64,000 nucleotides of DNA from Alphaproteobacteria bacterium (lineage in GTDB: Bacteria; Pseudomonadota; Alphaproteobacteria; Micropepsales; Micropepsaceae): NCBI GenBank assembly GCA_947474565.1, contig CANJIS010000002.1:124001-188000 (forward strand), in the 5' to 3' direction. The translations under genes were made by a program, and so were the position numbers. Numbering within the stretch: the first letter of the stretch is position 1; each line of letters starts with the position of its first letter. Shown piece by piece: positions 19,191 through 63,438 of this stretch. The notes under the pieces were generated by a model, which did no database searches, was not told where the DNA came from, and saw only the letters and a list, made by a program, of their open reading frames with translations.

Positions 19191-19790
19191 CTATTCGCAG
19201 GCCCGCGGTGTGGATTTGCCCAGCGGCCGGATGTCGTGAATCAGCATCTCCACAATGGGAAAGGGCCAGCTTTCGATACCCCGGAATGAGGGCTGACCCG
19301 GGCCGGGGGCGTTGAGCGGGCAAGTCGCGGTCGGCTTCTGGTTGATGCCTTTGACGGTGACCGCGGAGATCACCACATCATACTTGATGGCAGAGGTGGT
19401 GGTGTTGACGGAGGTGAGGACCATGTCCGGCTTGCCGTCGGTCTGCTTGAACTGAAACGCCAGCGTCTTTTCTCCAGCCGCCGCCTTCGCGAAAGCGTGC
19501 TTACCGGAAGCATCAACCGCCTCCAACAGGCGGGGCTTGCCGGAACCATTCCCGGCCAGAGCCAGCGTGATGGTCTCACCCGGATAGATGATCACGTTGC
19601 CGTTGGGATCGACATAGGGATAGGGGTTGGTATCGATCTGGCCCGAGCTGCCTTCAGTACGCAACGTCAAGGTGCTGACTTTGCGGCAGGGTACCTGGGC
19701 GCACATCTGCTTGAGCATCTGGGCGGAGGGCTGCCCAACAGCCGGTACAGCCGCCAAAAGCAGCATTCCAGATAGCCAGATCGCACGCAT
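19191..19790 (-). CDS. Exported hypothetical protein, tandem paralogue 1
   Basis: 199 aa with a signal peptide (MRAIWLSGMLLLAAVPAVGQ, cleavage after about residue 20). The mature part carries YPGETITLALAGNG, cysteines in QVPCRKV, TATCPLNAPG and the C-terminal ACE, and an IKYDVVISAV beta segment. It probably folds as a small periplasmic beta-sandwich. It is clearly paralogous to the next gene, 11 bp away. No known family recognised. Confidence 0.8.
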   Translation of the reverse strand: MRAIWLSGMLLLAAVPAVGQPSAQMLKQMCAQVPCRKVSTLTLRTEGSSGQIDTNPYPYVDPNGNVIIYPGETITLALAGNGSGKPRLLEAVDASGKHAFAKAAAGEKTLAFQFKQTDGKPDMVLTSVNTTTSAIKYDVVISAVTVKGINQKPTATCPLNAPGPGQPSFRGIESWPFPIVEMLIHDIRPLGKSTPRACE

Positions 19791-19801
19791 ATCAATACTC
19801 C

Positions 19802-20413
19802 CTATTCACAAGCCCGGCTGGCCGATGCCGCAAGCGGGCGGATGTTCCGAATGATCATCCGCATAATAGGGTGCTGCCAGCTTTCGGTGTTGAAGAACGC
19901 CGCCTGCCCAGAACTGGGCGGATTGACTGGGCATGTCGAAGTCCCGACCCGGTCAATACCCCGGTCACTCACGGCGGACATCACTGCGTCGTATTTTATC
20001 ACCGCGCTGGTGGCGTTGCTGACCATGAGCATCATGTCTGTCTTGCCGTCCATCTGGGAGAACTGAAATTCCAAGGTCGCGTCGTTGGCGGAGGGTTGGG
20101 CGAATTGCTGAGCGCCTTTGGCATCAGCGAATTTCAGCAGGCGGGGCATTCCCGTGCCGTCCTTGGCCAAGGCCAACGTGATGGTCTCGCCCGGGTAAAT
20201 GATCAGATTGCCGCTGGGATCGAGATAGGGATAAGGGCCCGTCTCGACCTCCCCCACGCGGCCATCCGGCCCGCGCAAGGGAATCTTTGTAACATTGCGG
20301 CAGGGGACCTGAGCGCGCATCTGCTTGATACGAGCGTCGGGATCACTGGCGGGCTGCCCAAAAGCCGGGGTAGCCGCCAAAAGCAACATCCCACATAGCC
20401 AGATCGCGCGCAT
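19802..20413 (-). CDS. Exported hypothetical protein, tandem paralogue 2
   Basis: 203 aa, signal peptide MRAIWLCGMLLLAATPAFGQ almost identical to its neighbour's. Shared positions include VPCRNV, the NLIIYPGETITLALA stretch, IKYDAVMSAV, TSTCPVNPP and the terminal RACE. The tandem, co-oriented arrangement shows local duplication with substantial divergence since. Both are probably transcribed together and secreted to the periplasm; the function is unknown. Confidence 0.8.
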   Translation of the reverse strand: MRAIWLCGMLLLAATPAFGQPASDPDARIKQMRAQVPCRNVTKIPLRGPDGRVGEVETGPYPYLDPSGNLIIYPGETITLALAKDGTGMPRLLKFADAKGAQQFAQPSANDATLEFQFSQMDGKTDMMLMVSNATSAVIKYDAVMSAVSDRGIDRVGTSTCPVNPPSSGQAAFFNTESWQHPIMRMIIRNIRPLAASASRACE

Positions 20414-21089: not shown

Positions 21090-21557
21090 ATGATCTCTTC
21101 CTCCACCGCTGCCGAGGTCGCGCGCGGTATTTGCAAGCTTCTGATTCAGGAAGGCTATTCGCCCATCCTGGAATTCACCTTGCCCAATGGACGCCGCCTG
21201 GATGTCGCCGCGCTTGGGCCGGGCGGCGAGATGCTGGGTGTCGAGATCAAGGTGGCGCTGGCCGATCTGCGCGGCGATGTGAAATGGCCGGAGTATCTGG
21301 ATTATTGCGACCTGTTCTATTTCGCCATTCCGCCGGATTTCCCGCCCGAGCATGTACCTGCCGAGACCGGATTGATGATCGCGGACCGCTATGGCGGCGC
21401 CATCGTCAAACCGGCAGAGGCGCAATCACTGCACGCCAGCCGCCGCAAGGCGGTGACACTGAGCTTCGCCAAGGTGGCGGCGGAGCGGTTGAGCGCGGTG
21501 ATGGAAAGCATGGCGGCGGCTTCGGTGCCAAATCTGGTCATTCCCGATGCTGAGTAA
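21090..21557 (+). CDS. MmcB family DNA repair protein
   Basis: 155 aa. Resembles MmcB, a predicted PD-(D/E)XK-type nuclease-like protein linked to mitomycin C tolerance in Alphaproteobacteria. The core contains FTLPNGRRLDVAALG and LGVEIKVALADLRGDVKWPEYLDYCDLFYFAIP, with the D...E-x-K pattern visible as RRLDV...VEIKV. It starts 9 bp after hisB and overlaps the next gene by 11 nt. Confidence 0.85.
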   Translation: MISSSTAAEVARGICKLLIQEGYSPILEFTLPNGRRLDVAALGPGGEMLGVEIKVALADLRGDVKWPEYLDYCDLFYFAIPPDFPPEHVPAETGLMIADRYGGAIVKPAEAQSLHASRRKAVTLSFAKVAAERLSAVMESMAAASVPNLVIPDAE

Positions 21558-21921
21558 AGCCCAGGCGCGCAAGACCATGCTGGGTGTGGAAGGCACATCG
21601 GAAGGGCCCTACTTCGGACGGCCTTCGGTATTTTACGGCGAAGCCTTTGGCGGGCGCGTGCATGACAAGGAAGAGGCCGTGGCGCTTCGGGTCGCCAGTA
21701 TCGAGATGCGCGATGTGATGCTGGAGGCGGAGCCCAAGCTTTTCTACATCACCGATCACTATCGGCCCTGGCCGATGCTGCTGGCGCGGTTATAGGCGCT
21801 GGATGTGAAGACGCTGAAGAGTCTGGTGATGGCGCGGATCGGTGAAGTCCAGGCCAAGGCGGCAAAGAAGCGCGCCAAAAAGCCGGCGAAGAAAGCCGCG
21901 AAGAAAAAGAAGAAAGTTTAG
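21547..21921 (+). pseudogene. MmcQ/YjbR-like protein interrupted by an amber codon
   Basis: The frame begins MLSKAQARKTMLGVEGTSEG and runs through AVALRVASIEMRDVMLEAEPKLFYITDHYRPWPMLLARL to a TAG at 21793-21795, giving 82 aa. The same frame continues without a break as ALDVKTLKSLVMARIGEVQ and a Lys/Ala-rich tail to the TAG at 21919-21921. The part after the stop looks like the normal C-terminal helix of YjbR/MmcQ-type DNA-binding proteins. It is therefore a gene with one in-frame nonsense codon: a fresh pseudogene, a readthrough gene or a base-call error. Confidence 0.72.
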
Positions 21922-22448
21922 CGCGGCGAGCGTTTGGCCAAGATTCTTTGAAGCGTACGGCGATGCATGTTCAAGCGGCGCGCCGTTTCCGACACGTTAT
22001 GGCCGCACAGTTCATAGACCCGCTGAATATGTTCCCAGCGCACACGGTCGGCCGACATGGGATTTTCCGGCGGCTTGGGCTTGGAGCCCGGCGTCGCCAT
22101 CAAGGCGGTGAGAATGTCATCGGCATCGGCAGGCTTGGGCAGATAATCGACGGCGCCATACTTCACCGCTGCCACGGCGGTGGCGATATTGCCGAAACCC
22201 GTCAGAACCACGACGCGCGTGGAAGGGCTGACGGCGTGCAGGGTTTCCACCACATCCAGGCCATTGCCGTCATCCAGCTTCAGATCCACCACCGCATAAG
22301 CGGGCGGGGTTTCCTTGGCGCGGGCTTTACCCTCGGCCACCGATTCCGCGATCGCCACCGTGAAGCCGCGCGTTTCCATGGCGCGAGCAAGCCGTTCCCG
22401 TAGCGGACGATCATCCTCCACAATAAGCAGGGTTTTTTCTTCGCTCAC
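21918..22448 (-). CDS. actR: Redox response regulator ActR/RegA/PrrA
   Basis: 176 aa. Receiver domain with acidic pocket VEDD (residues 10-13) and phospho-acceptor Asp55 in VVDLKLDDGNG, followed by a Fis-type helix-turn-helix (NVSETARRLNMHRRTLQRIL) highly characteristic of the RegA/ActR/PrrA family. It works with the upstream kinase to control redox-responsive genes. The start is the GTG at 22448, whose GTGA overlaps the stop of a truncated copy of its own 5' end. Codons 6-21 use less-favoured synonyms (CTT, ATT, CGT, CTA, CGG) than the rest of the gene. Confidence 0.95.
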   Translation of the reverse strand: MSEEKTLLIVEDDRPLRERLARAMETRGFTVAIAESVAEGKARAKETPPAYAVVDLKLDDGNGLDVVETLHAVSPSTRVVVLTGFGNIATAVAAVKYGAVDYLPKPADADDILTALMATPGSKPKPPENPMSADRVRWEHIQRVYELCGHNVSETARRLNMHRRTLQRILAKRSPR

Positions 22449-22588
22449 GCCATGGCCTTTTTATTGGTCGCGCGGCCGGACGGAAAACCACGAGGCCGCA
22501 CTTTTCCTGGCCGACGCTCGGCGCGCGCCAAGCGCTCGCGCAGGGGGCGGTCGTCTTCGACGATCAGGAGGGTTTTCTCTACTGTCAT
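22445..22588 (-). pseudogene. Orphan, synonymously diverged copy of the actR 5' end
   Basis: A 47-codon frame, ATG at 22588, TGA at 22445-22447. Residues 4-23 (ending in VEDDRPLRERLARA) are identical to ActR, yet 16 of these 20 codons differ at synonymous positions. After codon 23 it runs into a palindromic repeat and is unrelated to ActR. Its TGA overlaps the GTG start of actR, so if translated it would be coupled to it. It could be a remnant gene 5' end, a leader peptide or a footprint of an insertion. Confidence 0.75.
22465..22507 (-). repeat. GGAAAAGTG...TTTTCC palindromic element, copy A
   Basis: Read on the minus strand it starts GGAAAAGTGCGG, has the inverted arm TTTTCC and ends GCGACCAA. 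The end lies about 16 nt before the actR start. Same orientation relative to the downstream gene as the other copies at 22596-22628, 29538-29577 and 30140-30180. Confidence 0.75.
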
Positions 22589-22595
22589 ATCCACT

Positions 22596-22628
22596 TGTCG
22601 CGCGGCAACCGCGAGGCCGCACTTTTGC
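22596..22628 (-). repeat. Palindromic element, copy B (shortened)
   Basis: Read on the minus strand: GCAAAAGTGCGGCCTCGCGG then a 10-bp deletion relative to copy A and the ending GCGCGACAA. It lies 7 nt upstream of the orphan actR start, so element plus gene 5' end are tandemly repeated with a period of 140 bp. Confidence 0.65.
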
Positions 22629-22683
22629 GGGCCGTCGCTCCGGGCGGGGACATAGTACCCGAGACCGGCTGCGTCAATCGGTC

Positions 22684-24075
22684 TTAATCAGGCGCCGTGG
22701 TGGGAGGTTCTTCCCCGTCAATCACGCCCCGCGCCCAATTAATGGATACACGCGCGCCGCCGCTGTCGGGGTTTACCGCTTTAACCACGCCGCCGGTCTG
22801 TTCCAGCAGCACTTTGGCGATGAAAAAGCCAAGCCCCATGCCTTCATGCTCGTCCAGGGAACCGCGCGGGCCCATCTCGGTCTCGCCCAAAGCATAATGG
22901 CCGGGCCGCGAGGTGACATAAGGCTCGCCGATCCGCTCATAAATCTCGGGCGCGAAGCCGGGGCCGTCATCTTCGATCACGACAGAAAGCTGCGTCTCGG
23001 TCCATGCGGTGGTAATGCGGACCTGGCCGGAGGCAAAATCGGCGGCATTTTCGATCAGGTTGCCAAGACCGTGCAACAATTCGGGCACGCGCCAGACTTG
23101 CGGCTCCGGCGTGCCGGTGTCGGGCGCGGTGACTGCAATATCTATATCGCTCCCACGATAGGAAGCGGCGATATCATCCAGCAGCGCGCCAAGCGGCAAA
23201 CGCGAGGTGGCGCCCAGCATACCCTCTTCGGGCGTTGCCAGCCGGGCAATGATGGCGCGGCAACGCTCTGCCTGGGCGCGCAGCAAACGCACATCTTCTA
23301 TCTCAGGCGAATTCTCTTTCATGCCGCGTTCCAGCTCGCGCGCCACCACCGCGATGGTGCCGAGCGGCGTGCCCAGCTCATGCGCCGCAGCTGTCGCCAA
23401 AGCACCGATGGAAGCCAGACGATGTTCGCGCGATAGCGCCAATTGCGTGGCGGCAAGGCCCGCCGACATGCGGGTGGCTTCAGAGGCGATGCGCCAGGCA
23501 TAGACCGAGGTAAAGCCGATGCCGATGATCAACGCCGCCCAGATGCCGGCCTGATAGAGCTGCGGCAGCATCAAGGGCTCGCCCACCGGCCAGGGCAGCG
23601 GGTAATGGACCATGCCGATGATGGAAACCGAAATGAAGGCGATGAACGCAAGGATCAGGGTGTTGCCCAGATTGAGCGTGGCGGCGGCGATAACCACCGG
23701 CGCCACGAACATCAGCGAAAAGGGATTGGCGATGCCGCCAGTGAAATAAAGCAGAGCCGCCAGCTGCACCACGTCAAAGGACAGATAGAAGGTGGCTTCG
23801 CGATTGGAGAGGCGGTGGCTGGGCGGATAGCGCAAAGTCAGCACCACATTCAGCACCGCGCTCGCCGCGATGGCCGCGATGCAATATGTAAGCGGCAGGG
23901 GATAACCCAGCGCGAAATAAACCAGGAAAAGCGCCACCGATTGGCCGGCAATGGCCAGCCAGCGCAGAACGGACAAGGTGCGAAGCCTGACCCGGCCGCG
24001 TTCGGCCCCGGTGGGCGAGGGAAAATATACCCTGGGTCTTGAGACTTTTGCGCGCTCCCGCGCTGCTGCCGCCAC
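22684..24075 (-). CDS. actS: Redox sensor histidine kinase RegB/ActS/PrrB
   Basis: 463 aa. About six N-terminal membrane helices (roughly residues 35-195) contain the quinone-sensing GGIANPF motif at 113-119. The H-box AAAHELGTPLGT has phospho-His232. Cys272 lies exactly 40 residues after it, the same spacing as the redox-active His225/Cys265 pair of Rhodobacter RegB. A HATPase domain with DDGPGF and GMGLGFFIAK follows. Intact, so a functional aerobic/anaerobic redox sensor is likely. Divergent from sco and upstream of actR on the same strand. Confidence 0.95.
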   Translation of the reverse strand: MAAAARERAKVSRPRVYFPSPTGAERGRVRLRTLSVLRWLAIAGQSVALFLVYFALGYPLPLTYCIAAIAASAVLNVVLTLRYPPSHRLSNREATFYLSFDVVQLAALLYFTGGIANPFSLMFVAPVVIAAATLNLGNTLILAFIAFISVSIIGMVHYPLPWPVGEPLMLPQLYQAGIWAALIIGIGFTSVYAWRIASEATRMSAGLAATQLALSREHRLASIGALATAAAHELGTPLGTIAVVARELERGMKENSPEIEDVRLLRAQAERCRAIIARLATPEEGMLGATSRLPLGALLDDIAASYRGSDIDIAVTAPDTGTPEPQVWRVPELLHGLGNLIENAADFASGQVRITTAWTETQLSVVIEDDGPGFAPEIYERIGEPYVTSRPGHYALGETEMGPRGSLDEHEGMGLGFFIAKVLLEQTGGVVKAVNPDSGGARVSINWARGVIDGEEPPTTAPD

Positions 24076-24117
24076 TGCCCGCTTCCTTTTTCCTGCAGGA
24101 TATTAGAGCATGGGGTC

Positions 24118-24720
24118 ATGTTTAAAACCAAGGAAGCCCTGATCCCCTATCTGCTGCTGGTCGCCGCCATAGCGGGCGGGCTGATCTGGCACGAAACCGA
24201 AAATGTGCCCCGCCTGGGCAAGACGGTGAGCCAAGGCAAGGTTGATCTGGGCGGACCATTCACCCTGACCGGTCAAGACGGCCAAAAAGTTTCCAGCACG
24301 GATTTCCGCGGCAAGTATCAGCTTATCTATTTCGGCTACAGCTTTTGCCCCGATGTCTGCCCCACCACGCTAGGCGTTATCGCCCAGGCGCTGGATAAAA
24401 TGGGCGTCGAGCAGAAGCGTATCGTGCCTGTCTTCATCACCATCGATCCGGCGCGCGACACGCCTGCGGTATTGAAAAAATATATGTCGGCGTTCGGAGA
24501 GCGGTTTGTCGGGCTAACCGGCACGGTGGACGAGATTGCTGCGGTGGAAAAGAAGTATCGGGTCTATGCCAAGAAAACCCCGTTGCCCGAAGGCGAAGGC
24601 TACGGCATGGATCATTCCAGTGTCATCTATCTGATGGCGCCGGATGGGCGGCTGGTCAGCTTTTATGACGAGCTGATTTCGCCCGACGATCTGCTCAAAG
24701 AATTAAAAGCGAAGATCTAA
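24118..24720 (+). CDS. senC: SCO1/SenC family copper chaperone
   Basis: 200 aa. One N-terminal membrane anchor (about residues 10-24) and a periplasmic thioredoxin-like domain. The copper ligands are Cys77 and Cys81 in YSFCPDVCPTT and the distal His in GMDHSS. It delivers copper to the CuA site of cytochrome c oxidase or serves as a thiol reductase. Its place beside regB/regA is the classic regB-senC-regA association. The stop overlaps folD by 4 nt. Confidence 0.95.
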   Translation: MFKTKEALIPYLLLVAAIAGGLIWHETENVPRLGKTVSQGKVDLGGPFTLTGQDGQKVSSTDFRGKYQLIYFGYSFCPDVCPTTLGVIAQALDKMGVEQKRIVPVFITIDPARDTPAVLKKYMSAFGERFVGLTGTVDEIAAVEKKYRVYAKKTPLPEGEGYGMDHSSVIYLMAPDGRLVSFYDELISPDDLLKELKAKI

Positions 24721-25601
24721 AGCGCCGGGACCGGCAGCTTGTTCTGATGGCAGGCCGCGATAAGCGTGTTCTGCATCAGGCACACGATTGTCATCGCCCC
24801 GACGCCGCCGGGAACGGGCGTGATCGCGCCAGCGATTTCCTTCGCGGCATTGTAATCCACATCGCCGACCAGTTTGGTTTTGCCCTCGCCGGCATCGACA
24901 CGGTTGATGCCGACATCAATCACCACCGCGCCTGGCTTGATCCAATCGGCCTTGACCATTTCCGGCTTGCCGATGGCGGCAACGACAATATCGGCGCGGC
25001 GCGCGATGGCGGGCAGATCACGCGAACGGGAATGCGCCATGGTGACGGTGGCATTGGCGGCCAGCAGCAATTGCGCCGCCGGTTTGCCGAATAGCAGCGA
25101 GCGGCCGATCACCAGCACATCCTTGCCGGCGATGTCGCCGACATATTCCTTGAGCAGCAGCATCACACCCGCCGGAGTGCAGGAGACAAGATGCGCCCGG
25201 CCCGACAGCAATAGCCCAGCATTGGTGGGCGTCAGCGCATCCACATCCTTGGCAGGATCGAGCGCGTCCAGAACCAGAGTTTCGTCCAGACCTTTGGGCA
25301 GCGGCAGTTGCACCAGGATGCCGTGCACCGATTTGTCCTGGTTCAACTCGCGAACCTTGGCGAGCAGCGTATCCATGCCGGTGTCAGCGGGAAGCGAGAC
25401 ATGGACGGATTTGAAGCCCAGCGCTTCTGCCGTCTTGCCCTTGTTGCGGACATAGACTTCCGAAGCCGGATCATTGCCCACCAGGACGGTGGCCAGACCG
25501 GGCACCAGACCATGCGCAGTTTTCAGGCGTGTGGCTTCGGCGGCAATTTTCTCACGCAGCTTCGCGGCGCTGGCCTTGCCGTCGATGATGGTGCCGGTCA
25601 T
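24717..25601 (-). CDS. folD: Bifunctional methylene-THF dehydrogenase/cyclohydrolase
   Basis: 294 aa. Interconverts 5,10-methylene-THF and 10-formyl-THF with NADP. The substrate motif VGNDPASEVYVRNKGKTAE carries the catalytic Lys, followed by ILVQLPLPKGLDE and the NADP-binding VIGRSLLFGKPAAQLLL. The C-terminus VPGGVGAMTIVCLMQNT is typical. Complete. It is 4 bp from yggT, probably the same transcript. Confidence 0.97.
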   Translation of the reverse strand: MTGTIIDGKASAAKLREKIAAEATRLKTAHGLVPGLATVLVGNDPASEVYVRNKGKTAEALGFKSVHVSLPADTGMDTLLAKVRELNQDKSVHGILVQLPLPKGLDETLVLDALDPAKDVDALTPTNAGLLLSGRAHLVSCTPAGVMLLLKEYVGDIAGKDVLVIGRSLLFGKPAAQLLLAANATVTMAHSRSRDLPAIARRADIVVAAIGKPEMVKADWIKPGAVVIDVGINRVDAGEGKTKLVGDVDYNAAKEIAGAITPVPGGVGAMTIVCLMQNTLIAACHQNKLPVPAL

Positions 25602-25604
25602 GGG

Positions 25605-25913
25605 TCAGTACAAATTGTAATGGCTGACGAGCCAGGGAAGGACATAGGACCTGAGCCAGAGGATCGCGAAAAACACGATCAGCGGCGACAAGTCCAATCC
25701 GCCCATGGACGGTATCTCCCGGCGAATTTGACGAAACACCGGTTCCGTCAGCGCGTACAGGATGCGCAGCACCGAGCGCGCGAAGTTATTGTGGACGTTG
25801 ATGACGTTAAAAGCGGTCAGCCAACTGACAATAACGGCCGCCAGCACCACCCACCAATAAAAGTCCAGAACGAGATAAATCAGGCCAATGATTGGGTTTA
25901 TGGTGCCGGGCAT
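25605..25913 (-). CDS. YggT family membrane protein
   Basis: 102 aa. Two predicted membrane segments, about residues 5-29 (IIGLIYLVLDFYWWVVLAAVIVS) and 76-97 (LSPLIVFFAILWLRSYVLPWLV), joined by the family motif RILYALTEPVFRQIRREIPSMGGLDLSP. YggT proteins are small inner-membrane proteins of uncertain role, sometimes linked to osmotic stress or cell division. Confidence 0.92.
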   Translation of the reverse strand: MPGTINPIIGLIYLVLDFYWWVVLAAVIVSWLTAFNVINVHNNFARSVLRILYALTEPVFRQIRREIPSMGGLDLSPLIVFFAILWLRSYVLPWLVSHYNLY

Positions 25914-26023
25914 GTTCCCTTGTACCGGCCCTTCTCGGGGCCCCGCAAGCGGCGGCTTGACCTGCCGGGACGGTATTCCTAAAACCCACGCCCCAGCCGG
26001 GATTTACCGGCCGGGAACGGTTC

Positions 26024-26099
26024 GGGGCTGTAGCTCAGTTGGGAGAGCGCCTCGTTCGCAATGAGGAGGCCAGCGGTTCGATTCCGCTCAGCTCCACCA
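26024..26099 (+). tRNA. tRNA-Ala (anticodon CGC)
   Basis: 76 nt including the encoded CCA. Acceptor GGGGCTG/CAGCTCC, D arm GCTC-AGTTGGGA-GAGC, anticodon stem CCTCG/TGAGG around loop TTCGCAA (anticodon CGC, reads GCG), T arm AGCGG-TTCGATT-CCGCT. The 3' end is repeated about 160 bp downstream. Confidence 0.95.
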
Positions 26100-26297
26100 C
26101 CCTAAAAAGGTGGTCTTCGAACCGGCAAACACCTTTCAGGCACCTTTTCAGTCAGGCCAGCGGTTCTGCCCGGCCTCGTGGCGTTCGCCCACTGCGGCGT
26201 TCGGGCTGCGAAAGATCCGCCGGACCTTTCACTTTTCGCCCTCACCCACTCAGCTCCACCATCCCCCAAGGGGTGGTCCTCGAACCGGAACCCGCCG
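26087..26297 (+). repeat. tRNA-Ala 3' end plus hairpin repeated downstream
   Basis: ACTCAGCTCCACCA-type sequence followed by a hairpin (ACCACC/GGTGGT) and TTCGAACCGG occurs at the tRNA end (26087-26126) and again at 26247-26289 with arms ACCATCCCC/GGGGTGGT and CTCGAACCGG. The 120 bp between has no gene. The pattern fits either duplication of a tRNA terminus and its terminator, or attL/attR-like scars of a lost integrated element. Confidence 0.55.
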
Positions 26298-26339
26298 TCT
26301 TAAATTTTGATTTACCACTCCGGGGCTTAAGTCAGGCCC

Positions 26340-26771
26340 ATGCGCGTGAGCCGCCTGATTCCCGTCCTGGCCGCCTGCCTTCTGGCAGCAGCCCCCCTGC
26401 GCGCTGCGGAGGAGGGGGCGAAGAAAAAGCCGGAACACAAGGTCACCCAGTCCGAGAGCTATCTGGAAGTGGAGCCGATCTACACCACCATCGTGGGCGA
26501 TAATCGCGCCCGGGGCATGCTGATGGTGGGCGTTGGCCTGGATGTTCCCAATGAAGAGTTGCGGGAAGAAGCCACCCGCTCTTTGCCGGTGCTGCGCGAC
26601 GCTTATGTCCGCAACCTGATGGCTTTCACCTCCAGTTCGGTGCGCACCGATGCCCAGCCGGATGTGGGCATGATCGCTGACCGGCTGCAGAGCGTCACCG
26701 ACCGGGCCCTGAAAAAGAAGGGCGCCAAGGTGCTTCTGGCCCAGGTGGCGCTGCGCGTTACCAATCACTGA
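26340..26771 (+). CDS. Exported protein, weakly FliL-like
   Basis: 143 aa. Signal peptide (MRVSRLIPVLAACLLAAAPLRA) and a Lys-rich linker precede YLEVEPIYTTIVGDNRARGMLMVGVGLDV, an acidic helix with LPVLRDAYVRNLMAF and a C-terminal VLLAQVALRV strand. This order resembles the periplasmic part of FliL-type proteins, but similarity is weak and no flagellar genes are nearby. Best called a periplasmic protein of unknown function. Confidence 0.65.
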   Translation: MRVSRLIPVLAACLLAAAPLRAAEEGAKKKPEHKVTQSESYLEVEPIYTTIVGDNRARGMLMVGVGLDVPNEELREEATRSLPVLRDAYVRNLMAFTSSSVRTDAQPDVGMIADRLQSVTDRALKKKGAKVLLAQVALRVTNH

Positions 26772-26832
26772 TCTTCCGGCGATAGCTCTCAAAGCCTAGG
26801 CTGCCCCGACGTCCGATTCGGGGCCGCCAGAA

Positions 26833-28729
26833 ATGAGTTTCGCAAAACCGGTCACGGGCTTGATGCCGCCCCTGCTGGTGCTTGGCCTGGCGGCGGCGTG
26901 CGTGCTGTTCGATCCTTTGGGCGCCACCAGCACCCTGCGCGGCAAACTGTTCGACACCTATCAGCGCCATGCGCAGGCCGCCCCCGATCCCAAGGTCGAA
27001 CTCGTCACGCTGGATTCCGGCAGCCTGGCCCGTTTCGGCCGCTGGCCTTGGGCCAATAACGGCCTTGGCCAGCTTACCCGCGCCATCGCCGCCAGCGGCG
27101 CTGACACGCTGGTCTTCGCCACACCGCTTGATAGACCCGAGAACGATGCTGTGCCCGCGCCTTTGTCAGGCGTGCCGACCGTGGTGCCAGTCTTGCTGGG
27201 GGTGGGCGGGTTGAACCCGCATCCCATCGCCCGCTTCGACTATGGCGGCCAGAAAAATCCGTTCGGGACCGCGCCCAGTTTTTCCAGCGCCGCGGGACCG
27301 ATTGAAGCGGTGGCCACCACCAGCGCCGGGCTGGGCGCACCCAACCTGATTGCCGATCCCGATGGCGTGGTGCGGCGGATGCCGGTGGTGTTCCGGCTGG
27401 GCAATCAACTTGTTCCTTCGCTCGCGATGGAAGCGGCACGGCTGGCCGAAAAAGAAAAAGCCATCGCCGTTGCCAGCGACGAGAAAGATTTGTTCGCGCT
27501 GCATTGGGGCGTTGCCGGAATGGCGGGCCTGACCACGCGGGGCGGGTTCATTCCTACCGCCAGCGACGGCCGTTTCTGGATCGATCATGCCCGCGCGCCA
27601 GAACAGATTTCTGCCGGTGCGTTGCTGTCGCAAGAGATGGCGGCGGGCCAACTCAAGGGCAAGATTCTGGTGCTGGATACGCCCGAGTACGTGGTGACAA
27701 CGTCGCTGGGCCAGCAGACCCGTGGCGCGGTCATCGCGCAAGGTATCGAAACCCTGGTTTCGGGGCATGTGCTGAGGCGGCCCAATTTCGCGGTGGCCGC
27801 CGAGTTCTGGAGCCTGATCCTACTGGGCGGCGCCACCATGCTGTTGATGCTGCGCTTTCGCGGTTATTGGGCGGCGCTGTTCGTCGCCAGCGCGATTGTC
27901 GCTGGGTTTTACGGCGCCTGGTTCGCCTTTGTGCGCGCTCATATCCTGCTGGATGCCGCCACACCTTCCATAAGTCTGGCTTTGATTTTCGCCGCCGGCG
28001 CCATCATGCGCGCCGCCGAGATCAATACGGCGCGCGCGAATTTGCGCCTGGCCTTCTCGGAATCCCTGCCCCATGCGAGCGTGGAAAAAATCGCGCACTC
28101 GCCGCAGCTTTTGTCGGTCGAGGGCGAGAACCGCACCGTTACCTATCTGGTATGGGGGGTGCGCGGACTTTCAGAGCTGGCCTCGTCGCTCACCGATAAT
28201 CCCAAAGCCTTCACGCAGATCATGCAGAAGGTCATGACGCCGTTGATGGATCAGGCGTTGGCGCATGGCGGCACCATCGACCGGCGGGGCGAGCCGCATG
28301 GGCTACAGCGTCACCGGGGGCGTGGTGCAATTGGCCGGGCGCATCCAGGCGCTATCGCCGCAATATGGCCCGGCAGTGATTGTGGCGGAAGAAACGCAAG
28401 CACAGGCGCAGCGCGGCTTTGCCTTTCTGGAAGTCGATTATATCGCAGCCGGCGTGGAGGACGTGCCGGTACGGCTTTATGCGCTGCTGGGAAGCCCGGT
28501 GGTGCGCGCCTCGCCCAAATTCCGCGCCTTGATCACGTTCCACGAACACATCTTCGCGTCGCTGCATCGCCAGCAATGGGCCAAGGCGCGCGCCTTGATC
28601 GACCAGTGCCGCAAATTATCGGGCGCCAGCCAGAAGCTGTATGACCTGCATCTCACACGCATCGGTTATTTTGAATCGAATCCGCCGGGGCCGAATTGGG
28701 ATGGCGCGTTCCGGCCGATATTGAAATAA
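26833..28729 (+). pseudogene. CHASE2-adenylate/guanylate cyclase, deleted and frameshifted
   Basis: Reading frame 1 (from 26833) encodes an N-terminal anchor, a periplasmic CHASE2 sensor domain, three membrane helices (about residues 320-395) and the start of a class III cyclase domain up to GGTIDR. The frame then shifts at about 28285-28300 and the rest of the domain (MGYSVTGGVVQLAGRIQAL... to 28729) continues in another frame. Relative to the family, the middle of the catalytic domain (around 70 residues) is missing. The first metal site also reads VWGVRG instead of FSDIRG, so cyclase activity was probably lost. Confidence 0.82.
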
Positions 28730-28739
28730 GCGCCGTCCG

Positions 28740-29522
28740 TTACTCTGCGATCCCCGCGCCATAATGTGCATGCGGTGCGCCGCTCAGCGCCGCCCACATC
28801 TGGTCGCCCCAGGAAAAATGCCACCATTCATCGGGATGGCCGGCAAAACCTTCTTCCGTCATCAGCCAGTGCAGCAGACGGCGATTGGCTTGCGCCTCCT
28901 GGTCGGAAAAGGAAAAGTTTTCCGCATCAAGCGTTTCAAACCGGTCGCGATTGGCGAGTGCGGTGACATCATCGAACAGCGAGCCCATCCATAGGGTCTC
29001 ACCGGTTTTCCATTTGAGCGTAAGGTCCACCGCCCCGCCCGTGGCATGGGGCGCAGGCGAATTTTCATCCACCGACGGCGCAGCCCAATAGCGCTCGACT
29101 TCTTCGATAAGGGCCGCGCCGTTGAGACCGGGGTCGCGGCGCTGAAGCTCACGCGGCATCCAGATATCGTGGAAAAAAGCCTGCACGGCGCGCGGCCTCC
29201 AGGCATCAAACACAAACAATTCAAGCCCCGCTTCACTGGCCCGGGCGTTCACCTTGCCAAGCTTGTCCGCCACGCTTTGGCGCAGCAGCAGCTTTTCAGT
29301 GGCGCCTTCAACGCGTTGCCAATAAGGCGGATTGCGCGGATTGGCATAGAAATTTTCGCCTTTGAGGCCAGCATCCCGCGCTTCCACCATCGCTTCGCCA
29401 AACAGCGCATTGTCGCGCCGGATGGGCATGGTCTTGCGGCTGTTCTTGCGCGCCGCCCGCGCCGGGCCCTGGTCGCCGATGGGGCGCTGGCGCAATGCTT
29501 CCAGGCTTTTAAATACCGTCAT
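28740..29522 (-). CDS. D-Ala-D-Ala dipeptidase, VanX/M15D family
   Basis: 260 aa. Zinc peptidase that cleaves D-Ala-D-Ala. The zinc motif SPAPHATGGAVDLTL supplies His and Asp, EWWHFSWGDQ supplies the catalytic Glu and third ligand His, and FDAWRPRAVQ holds the conserved Arg. There is no obvious signal peptide, so it may be cytoplasmic and used for peptidoglycan peptide recycling rather than vancomycin resistance (no vanHA neighbours). ATG at 29522 is chosen; the upstream extension runs into a dispersed repeat. Confidence 0.88.
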   Translation of the reverse strand: MTVFKSLEALRQRPIGDQGPARAARKNSRKTMPIRRDNALFGEAMVEARDAGLKGENFYANPRNPPYWQRVEGATEKLLLRQSVADKLGKVNARASEAGLELFVFDAWRPRAVQAFFHDIWMPRELQRRDPGLNGAALIEEVERYWAAPSVDENSPAPHATGGAVDLTLKWKTGETLWMGSLFDDVTALANRDRFETLDAENFSFSDQEAQANRRLLHWLMTEEGFAGHPDEWWHFSWGDQMWAALSGAPHAHYGAGIAE

Positions 29523-29537
29523 GCCCGACTTTATCCA

Positions 29538-29577
29538 TGGTCGCACGGCCGGACGGAAAACCGCTGCACACTTTTCC
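29538..29577 (-). repeat. GGAAAAGTG...TTTTCC palindromic element, copy C
   Basis: Minus-strand reading GGAAAAGTGTGCAGCGG, arm TTTTCC, end GTGCGACCA. It ends 15 nt before the start codon of the VanX-like gene, the same orientation and spacing as copy A at actR. Confidence 0.75.
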
Positions 29578-29600
29578 TAGCCGCGCTTATATTACCCGCG

Positions 29601-30104
29601 ATGGGGAATGAAGCAAATTTGACGAAACACTATCGCCAAGCGCGGCGGGATTTCATCTCTGCCTGCGAAAAACTTGGCGCAGATGTGATAGCCCGCGTGC
29701 ATCCGCAGCGGGGTCCGGACGGCAAGCCCCTATTCTGTGACTGCGCCGCCTTTGGACCGCGCGGGGCAGAGCGCGGGTTGCTGGTGATCGCGGGCGCGGA
29801 AACCATCACGGCCTTGCTCCACAATGCGTTGCCTGGGGCGCAACGGGTGGTGGTGGTGCATGATCCCGATCCCTATGCCCGGACCTGGGGCAAACCAGGA
29901 GAAACGGACTGGCCGGCGAAAACGCTTTGCGCCATAGCCACGGAAAACTTGGCCCGCGTTAAAAAACTGATGGTGCTGGATTTGAGCGAGATCGCGGAGG
30001 AATCCGGCCTGAAGCAGGCCCTGCCCGCTGCAGCCGTAACCTTCCGAACCGTCAAGCCGAAACAGGCCGAAGAGGCTTTTATGGCGGCGATTGCCGCGCT
30101 TTGA
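29601..30104 (+). CDS. Protein with DUF2817-like N-terminus, truncated relative to that family
   Basis: 167 aa from the ATG at 29601; the frame is open much further upstream but that part is antisense to the VanX-like gene. Residues 9-60 (YRQARRDFISACEKLGADVI, HPQRGPDGKPL, GPRGAERGLLVIAG) resemble the start of DUF2817 (M14-like) proteins, which are usually around 360 aa. The remainder (HDPDPYARTWGKPG...LMVLDLSEI) does not, and the zinc motif is not evident. It may be a shortened relative without peptidase activity. Confidence 0.55.
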   Translation: MGNEANLTKHYRQARRDFISACEKLGADVIARVHPQRGPDGKPLFCDCAAFGPRGAERGLLVIAGAETITALLHNALPGAQRVVVVHDPDPYARTWGKPGETDWPAKTLCAIATENLARVKKLMVLDLSEIAEESGLKQALPAAAVTFRTVKPKQAEEAFMAAIAAL

Positions 30105-30139
30105 GCTTTCGGGTTATAGGGTTGTTGGAGCGTCGGTCC

Positions 30140-30180
30140 GGAAAAGTGGTTTCCCGGTTTTCCGCAGACCGCGCGACCAA
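30140..30180 (+). repeat. GGAAAAGTG...TTTTCC palindromic element, copy D
   Basis: Plus-strand GGAAAAGTGGTTTCCCGG, arm TTTTCC, end GCGCGACCAA. It lies 11 bp upstream of tRNA-Arg in the same orientation, extending the pattern seen at actR and the VanX-like gene. Confidence 0.7.
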
Positions 30181-30191
30181 ACGCTAAGTAC

Positions 30192-30268
30192 GCGCCCGTA
30201 GCTCAGCTGGATAGAGTGCTGCCCTCCGAAGGCAGAGGTCATAGGTTCGAATCCTATCGGGCGCGCCA
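30192..30268 (+). tRNA. tRNA-Arg (anticodon CCG)
   Basis: 77 nt including encoded CCA. Acceptor GCGCCCG/CGGGCGC, D arm GCTC...GAGT, anticodon stem CTGCC/GGCAG with loop CTCCGAA (anticodon CCG, reads CGG), T arm ATAGG-TTCGAAT-CCTAT. All four arms pair well. Confidence 0.96.
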
Positions 30269-30295
30269 CTTCCACTTCCGAACGCATACAAGCCG

Positions 30296-30766
30296 TCAGG
30301 CGTGAGCGTGATTGCCGGGCGGGTCTTGCGCCTTCTGCACCGTGATGGCGGGCTGCACGAACAGTGCTTTCACTCTGCGCCAGGCGCGGATGGGAAGCGC
30401 AACGGCTTCCGGCAGTTGGTGATGACAATAGGCGATTTTGCGGACATAGCGTTCCACATGCCAATGCACGATCATGCCCTGGCGGAACAGAGCGACGTCG
30501 CCGGGCGCGAGCATGTGCGACACACCGTCGGCGCCGGTGACGGTGACGCCGCCATCGATCACATGGATGACTTCATCAAAGTCATAGGTCCAGGTGAACT
30601 TGCCGGCGGTGCAATCCCACATCATGCTGAAGCCGGTCTTGTCGCTGCTGTTCGACAACATGCGATTGCGCGCGCGCGGATTGTTTTCGAGAATCCAGGC
30701 CGGATTGATCGGCGCGTCGCCCAAGTCGAGGCGACCAGAAAAGACGGGAATGTCGGTCCTGCGCAT
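30296..30766 (-). CDS. Cupin (cupin_3-like) protein
   Basis: 156 aa. Contains [20 protein letters not shown] and [31 protein letters not shown], the two cupin beta-barrel motifs in the form seen in the cupin_3 family, whose members include ureidoglycine aminohydrolase relatives. The substrate is unknown. It stands alone, facing the tRNA. Confidence 0.82.
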
Positions 30767-30840
30767 TCCGAAATCATAGCCGCAGGGCGTTAATGATTGC
30801 TGACCTGTAATGTTACTTTAGATTGCTGAGTACAGGCCAA

Positions 30841-30873
30841 AAACGCTGAAGGCCGGGCTTTCGCCCGGCCTTC
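30841..30873 (-). terminator. Terminator of the beta-propeller gene
   Basis: An 11-bp perfect stem GAAGGCCGGGC/GCCCGGCCTTC (30848-30858 with 30863-30873), followed on the minus strand by AGCGTTTTTGG. Located 33 bp beyond the stop of the 361-aa gene. Confidence 0.8.
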
Positions 30874-30905
30874 AACAATTCGCAATTGCAGAACTTCTGC
30901 CCGTT

Positions 30906-31991
30906 CTAGTTTTTCACGTATTTGTTGAGGGTCTTGGGACCGACTTCGGCGCCATAGATATTTCCGGCGGCATCCACCGCAACACCTTCCGCGGCGCTGG
31001 TGCCGGTGGTCTTGTCAACCGGATCAGGAATAAAGCCGACAATCTTGCCGTCCTTCAGGCTGCCCCACCGGAGGCCGCGCTTCCAGCCATCGTGATTTTT
31101 GGAAACCGATTCCGATTCCGAATCGGCGACATACAGAACATCGTCCTTGGTGACGAAGATTCCGCTGGGCCGGCTGAACTGATGGAATTGTTCAATGAAC
31201 TTTCCATCCTGGTCGAAGACCTGAACGCGGTTGTTGTTGCGGTCACCCACCAGCAAGCGGCCCTTCGAGTCGAAGGCCAGCGCGTGCGGCTGGTCGAATT
31301 CACCCGGCGCGGTGCCCAGCTTGCCCCATTCCTTGATGAACTTGCCGGTCTTGTCGAACTTGATGACGCGGTTGTTGCCCGAGCCATGACCTTCCGAGAC
31401 GAAAATATCGCCATTGGGCGCGGTGATGACGTCGTTCGGGGCATAGAAATAACCCGGTGACGCAGCGCCACCCGGCGTACCCAGTTTCAGAAGCACCTGA
31501 CCTGTCGGGCTGAACTTCCACACCTGGTTGCCGACCTTGGCATCGGCGGGCGGGCCGACCGGGCCGGGCGGACGCGCCTGACCGCGCGCCAGCTGCGTGC
31601 CGTTGTCCTGATAGTCGGTGACCCAGATATTATTGTCCGCGTCGACATAGATGCCGTGCGGCGTGATGAAGAGGCCCTTGCCGAACGAACCCAACAGCTT
31701 ACCGTTGGTATCGTAATGCAGCACTGGGTCCATGTCGGCGATCTTGCCGGTCTTGGCGTCATAGCAGGTGTTCTGGCCGCAGCGATCAACGGTCCAGATG
31801 GTTTTGCCGTCGCGGTCAATGTCCACCAGGCTGGTCGAACCCCAGCTGCGGCCATCCGGCAATTTAAAATTGTCCTTGATCGTCTTGTACGGATTGGGCG
31901 CGTCATTAGTGGGAGTGGTGGTATCCATCCCCTGAGCGAAGGCCGGCGCCAGCGTGAGCGCGGCGGCCAACAGATAAATTGCAGTGCGCAT
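30906..31991 (-). CDS. Exported NHL-repeat beta-propeller protein
   Basis: 361 aa, signal peptide MRTAIYLLAAALTLAPAFAQ. The mature protein has repeated blade motifs such as ITPHGIYVDADNNIWVTDY, YAPNDVITAPNGDIFVSEGHG and FDQPHALAFDSKGRLLVGDRNNNR, giving a six-bladed NHL propeller like peptidyl-hydroxyglycine amidating lyases. Whether it is an enzyme or binding protein is unknown. It is likely periplasmic and a single-gene unit with its own terminator. Confidence 0.85.
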   Translation of the reverse strand: MRTAIYLLAAALTLAPAFAQGMDTTTPTNDAPNPYKTIKDNFKLPDGRSWGSTSLVDIDRDGKTIWTVDRCGQNTCYDAKTGKIADMDPVLHYDTNGKLLGSFGKGLFITPHGIYVDADNNIWVTDYQDNGTQLARGQARPPGPVGPPADAKVGNQVWKFSPTGQVLLKLGTPGGAASPGYFYAPNDVITAPNGDIFVSEGHGSGNNRVIKFDKTGKFIKEWGKLGTAPGEFDQPHALAFDSKGRLLVGDRNNNRVQVFDQDGKFIEQFHQFSRPSGIFVTKDDVLYVADSESESVSKNHDGWKRGLRWGSLKDGKIVGFIPDPVDKTTGTSAAEGVAVDAAGNIYGAEVGPKTLNKYVKN

Positions 31992-62691: not shown

Positions 62692-63323
62692 AAAGCCCCC
62701 GCGGCCGGAGGCCGTCCAACAAACCTTATGTCATCGGCCTGACCGGCTCGCTCGCCATGGGCAAAAGCCAGACCGCCCGGTTGTTCGCCGCCGAAGGTGT
62801 ACCGGTGCATGACGCCGATGCCGTCATTCAGAAACTGTATGGCAAGGGCGGGGCTGCGGTGGCGAAAGTCGCGCAAGCATTTCCCAGCGCCGTGAAGGAG
62901 GGCGCGGTGGACCGCGCCACTTTATCCCGGCTTGTCACCGGCGATGACGCAGCCCTCAAAAAGCTGGAAGCCCTGGTGCATCCCCTGGTGATCGCCGACC
63001 GCGATGAATTCCTGGCAGCCAACCGGCAAGCGGACATGGTGGTGCTGGATATTCCCCTGTTGCTGGAAACCGGGGCGGATGACGGGATTGACGCTCTGGT
63101 GGTGGTGAGCGCGCCGGCATCGGTGCAGCGCGAGCGCGCGCTGAAACGCCCCGGCATGTCGGAAGAAAAATTCCAGGCTCTGCTGGTCCGGCAGTTGCCG
63201 GATGTGGACAAGCGGGCCAGGGCCGATTTCGTGATTGTCACCGACCAAGGTCTGGAGCACGCTCGGGAACAAGTGAAAAAGGCGCTCGGGGCCATCCGGG
63301 ACAAAATTCAAAAACATGCGTGA
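62688..63323 (+). CDS. coaE: Dephospho-CoA kinase
   Basis: 211 aa from a TTG that overlaps the aroE stop (TTGA). Last step of CoA synthesis. P-loop [18 protein letters not shown] near residues 17-34, [37 protein letters not shown]. The stop TGA overlaps the ATG of the orphan dnaQ copy (ATGCGTGA), the expected position of the original dnaQ start. Confidence 0.95.
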
Positions 63324-63438
63324 GATTGTTTTCGATACGGAAACCACGGGCTTTAAGCCAGGCGATGGCCACCGCCCCCGCGGCTTTCGCGCAGCGAAGG
63401 TCGCCATTAAAAAAACGGTGCGGCGATGCGAGAGATAG
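63316..63438 (+). pseudogene. Orphan, synonymously diverged copy of the dnaQ 5' end
   Basis: A 40-codon frame beginning [13 protein letters not shown]. Its first 20 residues differ from intact DnaQ only by Lys/Glu at position 14, while six codons differ synonymously. It then runs into an unrelated 50-bp linker holding the hairpin CTTTCGC/GCGAAGG and stops at a TAG 11-13 nt inside the intact gene, out of frame with it. The ATG overlaps the coaE stop as in the rest of the operon, so this is probably the original start of dnaQ. Confidence 0.78.

Follow-up and report, generated by a model that had tools for sequence, protein, structure and literature searches.

The window, the whole 64,000-nucleotide stretch of DNA analyzed here, belongs to a draft assembly of 39 contigs (G000) from a group of uncultured alphaproteobacteria and carries on its minus strand, in this order, actS (24075–22684), a degenerate copy of a palindromic repeat (E1, 22640–22597), an orphan repeat of actR codons 1–23 (22588–22520), a hairpin repeat (E2, 22519–22455) and actR itself (22448–21918). 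The product of actR, 176 amino acids long and read from a GTG start, is a response regulator of the ActR/PrrA/RegA type, as indicated by a match to the NCBIfam equivalog NF033791 (310.9 bits, cut-off 250) together with the neighboring upstream partner, actS, which encodes a sensor kinase of the ActS/PrrB/RegB type (NF033792). The minus-strand ATG at 22588 opens MTVEKTLLIVEDDRPLRERLARA, and actR from its GTG at 22448 reads MSEEKTLLIVEDDRPLRERLARA, so that the orphan repeats ActR residues 4–23 without a single amino-acid change and with 16 of the 20 codons, or 17 of the 60 nucleotides, different. The frame that contains the orphan (22594–22445) stays open across E2, and its TGA stop shares two bases with the actR GTG. 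The two actR 5′ copies lie 140 bp apart, each with a palindromic element ahead of it. E2 is placed with its GAGC foot abutting the orphan at 22519 and its A-rich tail, AATAAAAAGG, facing actR, whereas E1 is the counterpart of a lone repeat ahead of actR in the sister species (G092). In another congener (G014), a composite repeat with a long additional loop insert occupies the E1 position upstream of actR (L012). The initial annotation had described and placed the orphan correctly, and the anatomy of the locus can be regarded as established, with two amendments: nearly all codons are indeed recoded, but the oddly spelled copy is the 5′ end of actR itself rather than the orphan, and the palindromes are present, but the one before actR belongs to a dispersed repeat family, which we call E.

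The identity of the native copy emerges from comparison with related genomes. At actR the sister species has one E and one start, the state that the initial annotation had expected of relatives if the 140-bp unit was inserted, and its DUF815, dnaQ and ilvD ends are likewise uninterrupted. Measured against this species, silent codon differences in actR amount to 6/20 in the orphan, 15/22 in the active end and 18/60 in the body; for dnaQ the corresponding fractions are 6/18, 11/19 and 20/55, and for ilvD the orphan differs at 2 of 10 codons and the active end at 8 of 10 (1/9 and 8/9, respectively, in differences from G009). The DUF815 contrast with the sister species is weak (7/14 and 8/13), and in G014 the DUF815 orphan is much closer to E-less congeners (3/16) than is the active end (8–11/16). 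Across 26 congeners, codons for the same residue differ in 67% of cases in the active actR end, 53% in the orphan and 34–49% in the body, and the anomaly stops near the junction, with 0.67 for codons 4–23 and 0.45 for the next 20. The recoded codons 4–23 (22439–22380) have a GC3 of 0.45, compared with 0.59–0.80 in the remaining gene. Because the orphan resembles the sister-species end and the active end does not, the orphan is, by this sequence comparison, the native end kept in place, whereas E2 and the 5′ end that actR has now are newly acquired, which supports the earlier suggestion that one of these 5′ ends is a recoded replacement. The 16/20 codon differences are high yet within the range for two congeners (median 12, 95th percentile 16 among 26 congeners, counting all codon differences). 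No donor of the active end was found among 69 genomes of the genus, the best match being 84% over 63 nt, and an origin from a phage or plasmid was rejected, as phage and plasmid records contain no similar sequence.

When the 221-bp actR region was compared with its own genome by BLAST, it matched 45 places, nearly all of them through the ~60 bp between the orphan and actR. A covariance model recognizes 54 E copies in G000 and tens in G006–G009, G014, G017 and G019, and none in several other congeners; matches in G044, all on one strand and seemingly unrelated, were left out. The consensus of 23 aligned copies, GAGCGTCGGCCCGGAAAAGTG-loop-GGTTTTCCGCAGGCCGCGCGACCA followed by an A-rich tail, folds far better than shuffled sequences (z −4.31). 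In an Rfam scan of positions 21500–31000 only tRNAs reach the gathering score, and E matches no described RNA. As a dispersed, short intergenic imperfect hairpin with a conserved purine-rich foot (often GGAG in REP sequences), many copies and tandem arrays, E resembles REP sequences. However, no Y1 (RAYT) transposase was found in G000, G006, G007 or G009, all of which are E-rich, and Y1 does not track E copy number, so a RAYT was rejected as the driver of E. We know of no report of REP sequences carrying gene ends.

Recurrence of the actR anatomy was assessed by translating the flanks of E copies, within the genome stretches around them, and looking for the same peptide abutting both sides. 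Among 284 distinct E copies this yielded 12 genuine gene-end pairs with scores of 39–102 (96 for actR), against a maximum of 44 among 850 re-paired flanks; the three pairs in or near this null range (39, 40 and 46) draw additional support from a stop codon at the end of each copy, and high scores caused by adjacent tandem E copies were excluded. A control scan of 9,808 places without a recognized E revealed two further true cases, dnaQ in the window and secA in G006, the latter with a degenerate E as its spacer. Altogether, the displacement recurs at 14 gene ends in six species: actR, dnaQ, DUF815 and ilvD in G000; DUF815, a suhB-like gene and two others in G014; a fabG-like gene, zapA and one other in G008; and one each in G009, G017 and G006. 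The 5′ end of the gene is involved in five cases and the 3′ end in nine. Distant duplications around E amounted to chance alignments only, with no orphan remote from E. The polarity is the same in all cases, the orphan lying on the GAGC side of E (0–3 nt away where E is well recognized) and the active end on the GACCA/A-rich side (0–18 nt away). The insert, consisting of E and a gene end, sits at a distance of 22–70 nt from the native gene's end; the similarity between the two copies ends at or beside the start or stop codon. Over the 198 codon pairs of the 14 cases there are 84 silent and 12 replacement changes, silent divergence ranges from 1/11 to 9/11 codons per case, and no pair consists of identical copies. 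AU-rich recoding for translation initiation alone was rejected as an explanation, since it accounts for neither the C-to-G changes in actR nor the 3′ cases.

The second case in the window, dnaQ, lies on the plus strand, with an orphan of its first 20 codons (63316–63375), a 50-bp spacer (63376–63425) and dnaQ itself (TIGR01406; 63426–63998, running off the window), the first 20 codons of which are anomalous. The spacer has a short hairpin and an A-run but is not recognizably E and gives no fold signal (z +0.81). Orphan and active end differ by six silent changes and one replacement. The first bases of the dnaQ orphan overlap the end of the upstream frame, an arrangement that may account for native ends staying put. 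At the ilvD 3′ end (L132, G000:C8, 719–860), 9 of 11 codons are recoded, the stop included (TGA to TAA), and the adjacent E belongs to a subfamily whose inner sequence is different (GGCAGGCGAGC) and which also occurs at secA (L364). The DUF815 units of G000, G014 and G009 have the junction between E tail and gene in common and are therefore probably of one origin. In G014, which has this gene end twice in tandem (L175 and L220, at the end of C15 and the start of C23, in the order body, end, E, end, E, orphan), the repeat apparently breaks the assembly, and two silent changes separate the pair of ends that precede the orphan.

In our judgment the likeliest explanation, though far from a certain one, is that E2 together with a ready-made copy of actR codons 1–23 was inserted into the native gene directly after codon 23. 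The native DNA is still there, the orphan (codons 1–23) and the body (codons 24–176) together making up the native gene. The body would have been joined to the incoming end, so that the protein stays the same and the original 5′ end survives as a stub upstream. The conserved GAGC edge of E2 starts exactly after orphan codon 23, in support of such a takeover. The incoming end would owe its different spelling to a diverged homologue in which E already stood beside that gene end, and we infer that E and the new end arrived together from another lineage, since decay would have produced replacements as well and the orphan is scarcely altered. The constant polarity hints at an incoming strand that starts at the foot of E and ends at the junction. 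Such DNA might have entered as a short single strand that began 5′ with the E hairpin and carried, in its 3′ portion, a stretch homologous to the gene end; the strand would anneal to the gene end, the 5′ hairpin would shield the flap from removal, and ligation of the shielded flap to the displacing native strand would yield exactly the observed product.

Several observations count against this reading. No recombinase or transposase could be linked to E. E-adjacent gene ends overall show no codon anomaly, so that most E copies may have come in by another route or be old. The native actR copy carries an E as well (E1), and duplication may therefore be part of the history of this locus. The active ilvD end retains two residues (D and Q) that differ in G092 and/or G009 and that a distant donor need not share. 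Finally, the anomaly in the G014 DUF815 gene extends ~17 codons beyond the junction, and thus the inner edge of the insert is not always sharp. It is improbable, if conceivable, that E and the recoded gene end form a minimal mobile cassette without any protein, homing to conserved gene ends via a trans-acting machine; in that case the orphan and hairpin could even guide an attack on the native gene end and the recoded end could provide the rescue, making up a natural cleave-and-rescue drive.

The foremost competitor to a takeover by a short insert, which we nevertheless consider unlikely, is that ordinary homologous recombination brought in a long donor tract, one joint of which was illegitimate and fell at the foot of E, which would then be merely the breakpoint. 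The donor part might continue far into the gene body, as the overrun at the G014 DUF815 gene would allow, and import would account for the foreign spelling with its silent changes; E in general also sits close against gene ends. However, the orphans are always short, with none at a distance, the body right after the junction looks native in actR and dnaQ, and a passive breakpoint would not be expected to show a fixed polarity.

Somewhat less likely still is a duplication in place when E was inserted, either as a long target-site duplication or as a hairpin-driven tandem duplication of E and the gene end, after which the active copy would have diverged at silent positions, a change perhaps favored since it prevents the repeats from recombining E away. 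The tandem E arrays, the tandem repeat of gene end and E in G014, the position of E1 and E2, each before an actR 5′ end, and the G000-type residues retained in the active ilvD end all speak for it. Yet the ilvD orphan is almost unchanged relative to G092 and G009, whereas the active copy is changed at 9 of 11 codons; even young pairs, zapA for one, lose their similarity once the start or stop codon is reached; and no identical pair is among those found. A long target-site duplication in particular finds no support in the least diverged pairs, which differ and have only coding sequence in common.

The initial annotation had also considered that the short orphan peptide is itself under selection. 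As the origin of the arrangement, in the form of an attenuator or regulatory upstream frame of actR, this is very improbable: although the frame is open across E2 and coupled to the actR GTG, nine of the 14 cases are 3′ ends, where a leader is impossible, and codons 2–3 of the orphan encode T-V, in contrast to S-E in both the sister species and the active copy. The orphan frame may still act as a translated leader. All five 5′ orphan frames are open across the spacer and stop within −4 to +10 nt of the new start, compared with 20 of 120 arbitrary frames across other pre-gene E copies, a stop window picked after the data were seen. This suggests translational coupling, in which survivors retain the native initiation region as a leader whose translation would open the hairpin and lead to re-initiation at the recoded gene; at 5′ insertions the native start region would thus probably remain translated and pass ribosomes to the new start codon. 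Least credible are the remaining two proposals of the initial annotation, a chimeric assembly or the relic of two diverged full-length tandem actR genes: G000 is indeed a draft of 39 contigs, but the same anatomy and polarity recur in six separately assembled genomes, the junctions lack a long overlap that an assembler could bridge, and no second actR body is left, with no trace of one past codon 23.

Our literature search returned no account of gene-end duplication tied to bacterial palindromes. Rickettsia palindromic elements are hairpin repeats of alphaproteobacteria that lie in frame inside genes and are read through by an open frame; E shares the read-through frame but stands between a stub and a complete gene. 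By analogy, the nearest known systems appear to be prophage e14 in icd and the mobile ORFs of fungal mitochondria. In Escherichia coli K-12, the cryptic prophage e14 replaces the native end of icd with a recoded end of 165 bp and displaces icdC (PMC11148124); in this case, which served as a positive control, 12 nucleotides are changed, with 9 silent and 2 replacement codons out of 55 (PMC11148124). As at actR, the insert brings a new gene end with mostly silent changes, the native end is displaced by the recoded one, and it is left on the far side. Unlike e14, which spans 15 kb and has its own integrase, the units described here consist of a 60–75-bp non-coding hairpin and a gene end, with no site-specific integrase gene in the 140-bp actR insert, and they occur at many different genes, at 5′ as well as 3′ ends. 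In the mitochondrial genes atp6 of Allomyces and atp6, atp9, cox2 and nad3 of Glomus, mobile endonuclease ORFs come with a carboxy-terminal duplication, and the native end clusters with relatives whereas the inserted end does not (PMC3630166). The likeness to E lies in a foreign gene end that is in phase with the resident gene, with the native end pushed downstream. However, those ORFs carry a homing endonuclease, whereas the bacterial E carries none, none of the 14 inserts having room for such a gene, and takes 5′ ends too.

REP-type repeats usually count as intergenic passengers. The present family of hairpin repeats is linked, in case after case, to replaced coding ends in core genes (actR, dnaQ, ilvD, secA and zapA), with the protein little changed or unchanged, and the gene-end replacements would represent polarized insertion footprints of a non-coding repeat. 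The route by which such repeats enter compact genomes with overlapping neighbor genes thereby becomes open to inquiry. The findings also caution that a cluster of silent changes at the end of a gene can be the trace of an insertion and not of selection. Should the unit be able to move by itself, it would be, to our knowledge, the smallest element that restores the gene it invades.

Further E copies were encountered in other settings. Two more lie in the window, at 29538–29587 and 30126–30182, one leading straight into an ATG (GACCATGG) and the other ending ~10 nt ahead of the tRNA gene at 30192. Head-to-tail arrays with a ~60-bp period are present at L103 and L245 (G019:C160) and at G008:C330:5781–6121, and E alone is therefore also prone to tandem duplication. 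Three viral contigs (L555–L557) have the same E copy at one shared locus, with no flanking gene-end repeat. Elsewhere in the window, two adjacent, similar frames for small secreted proteins (19191–20413; MRAIWL...) are apparently diverged tandem duplicates.
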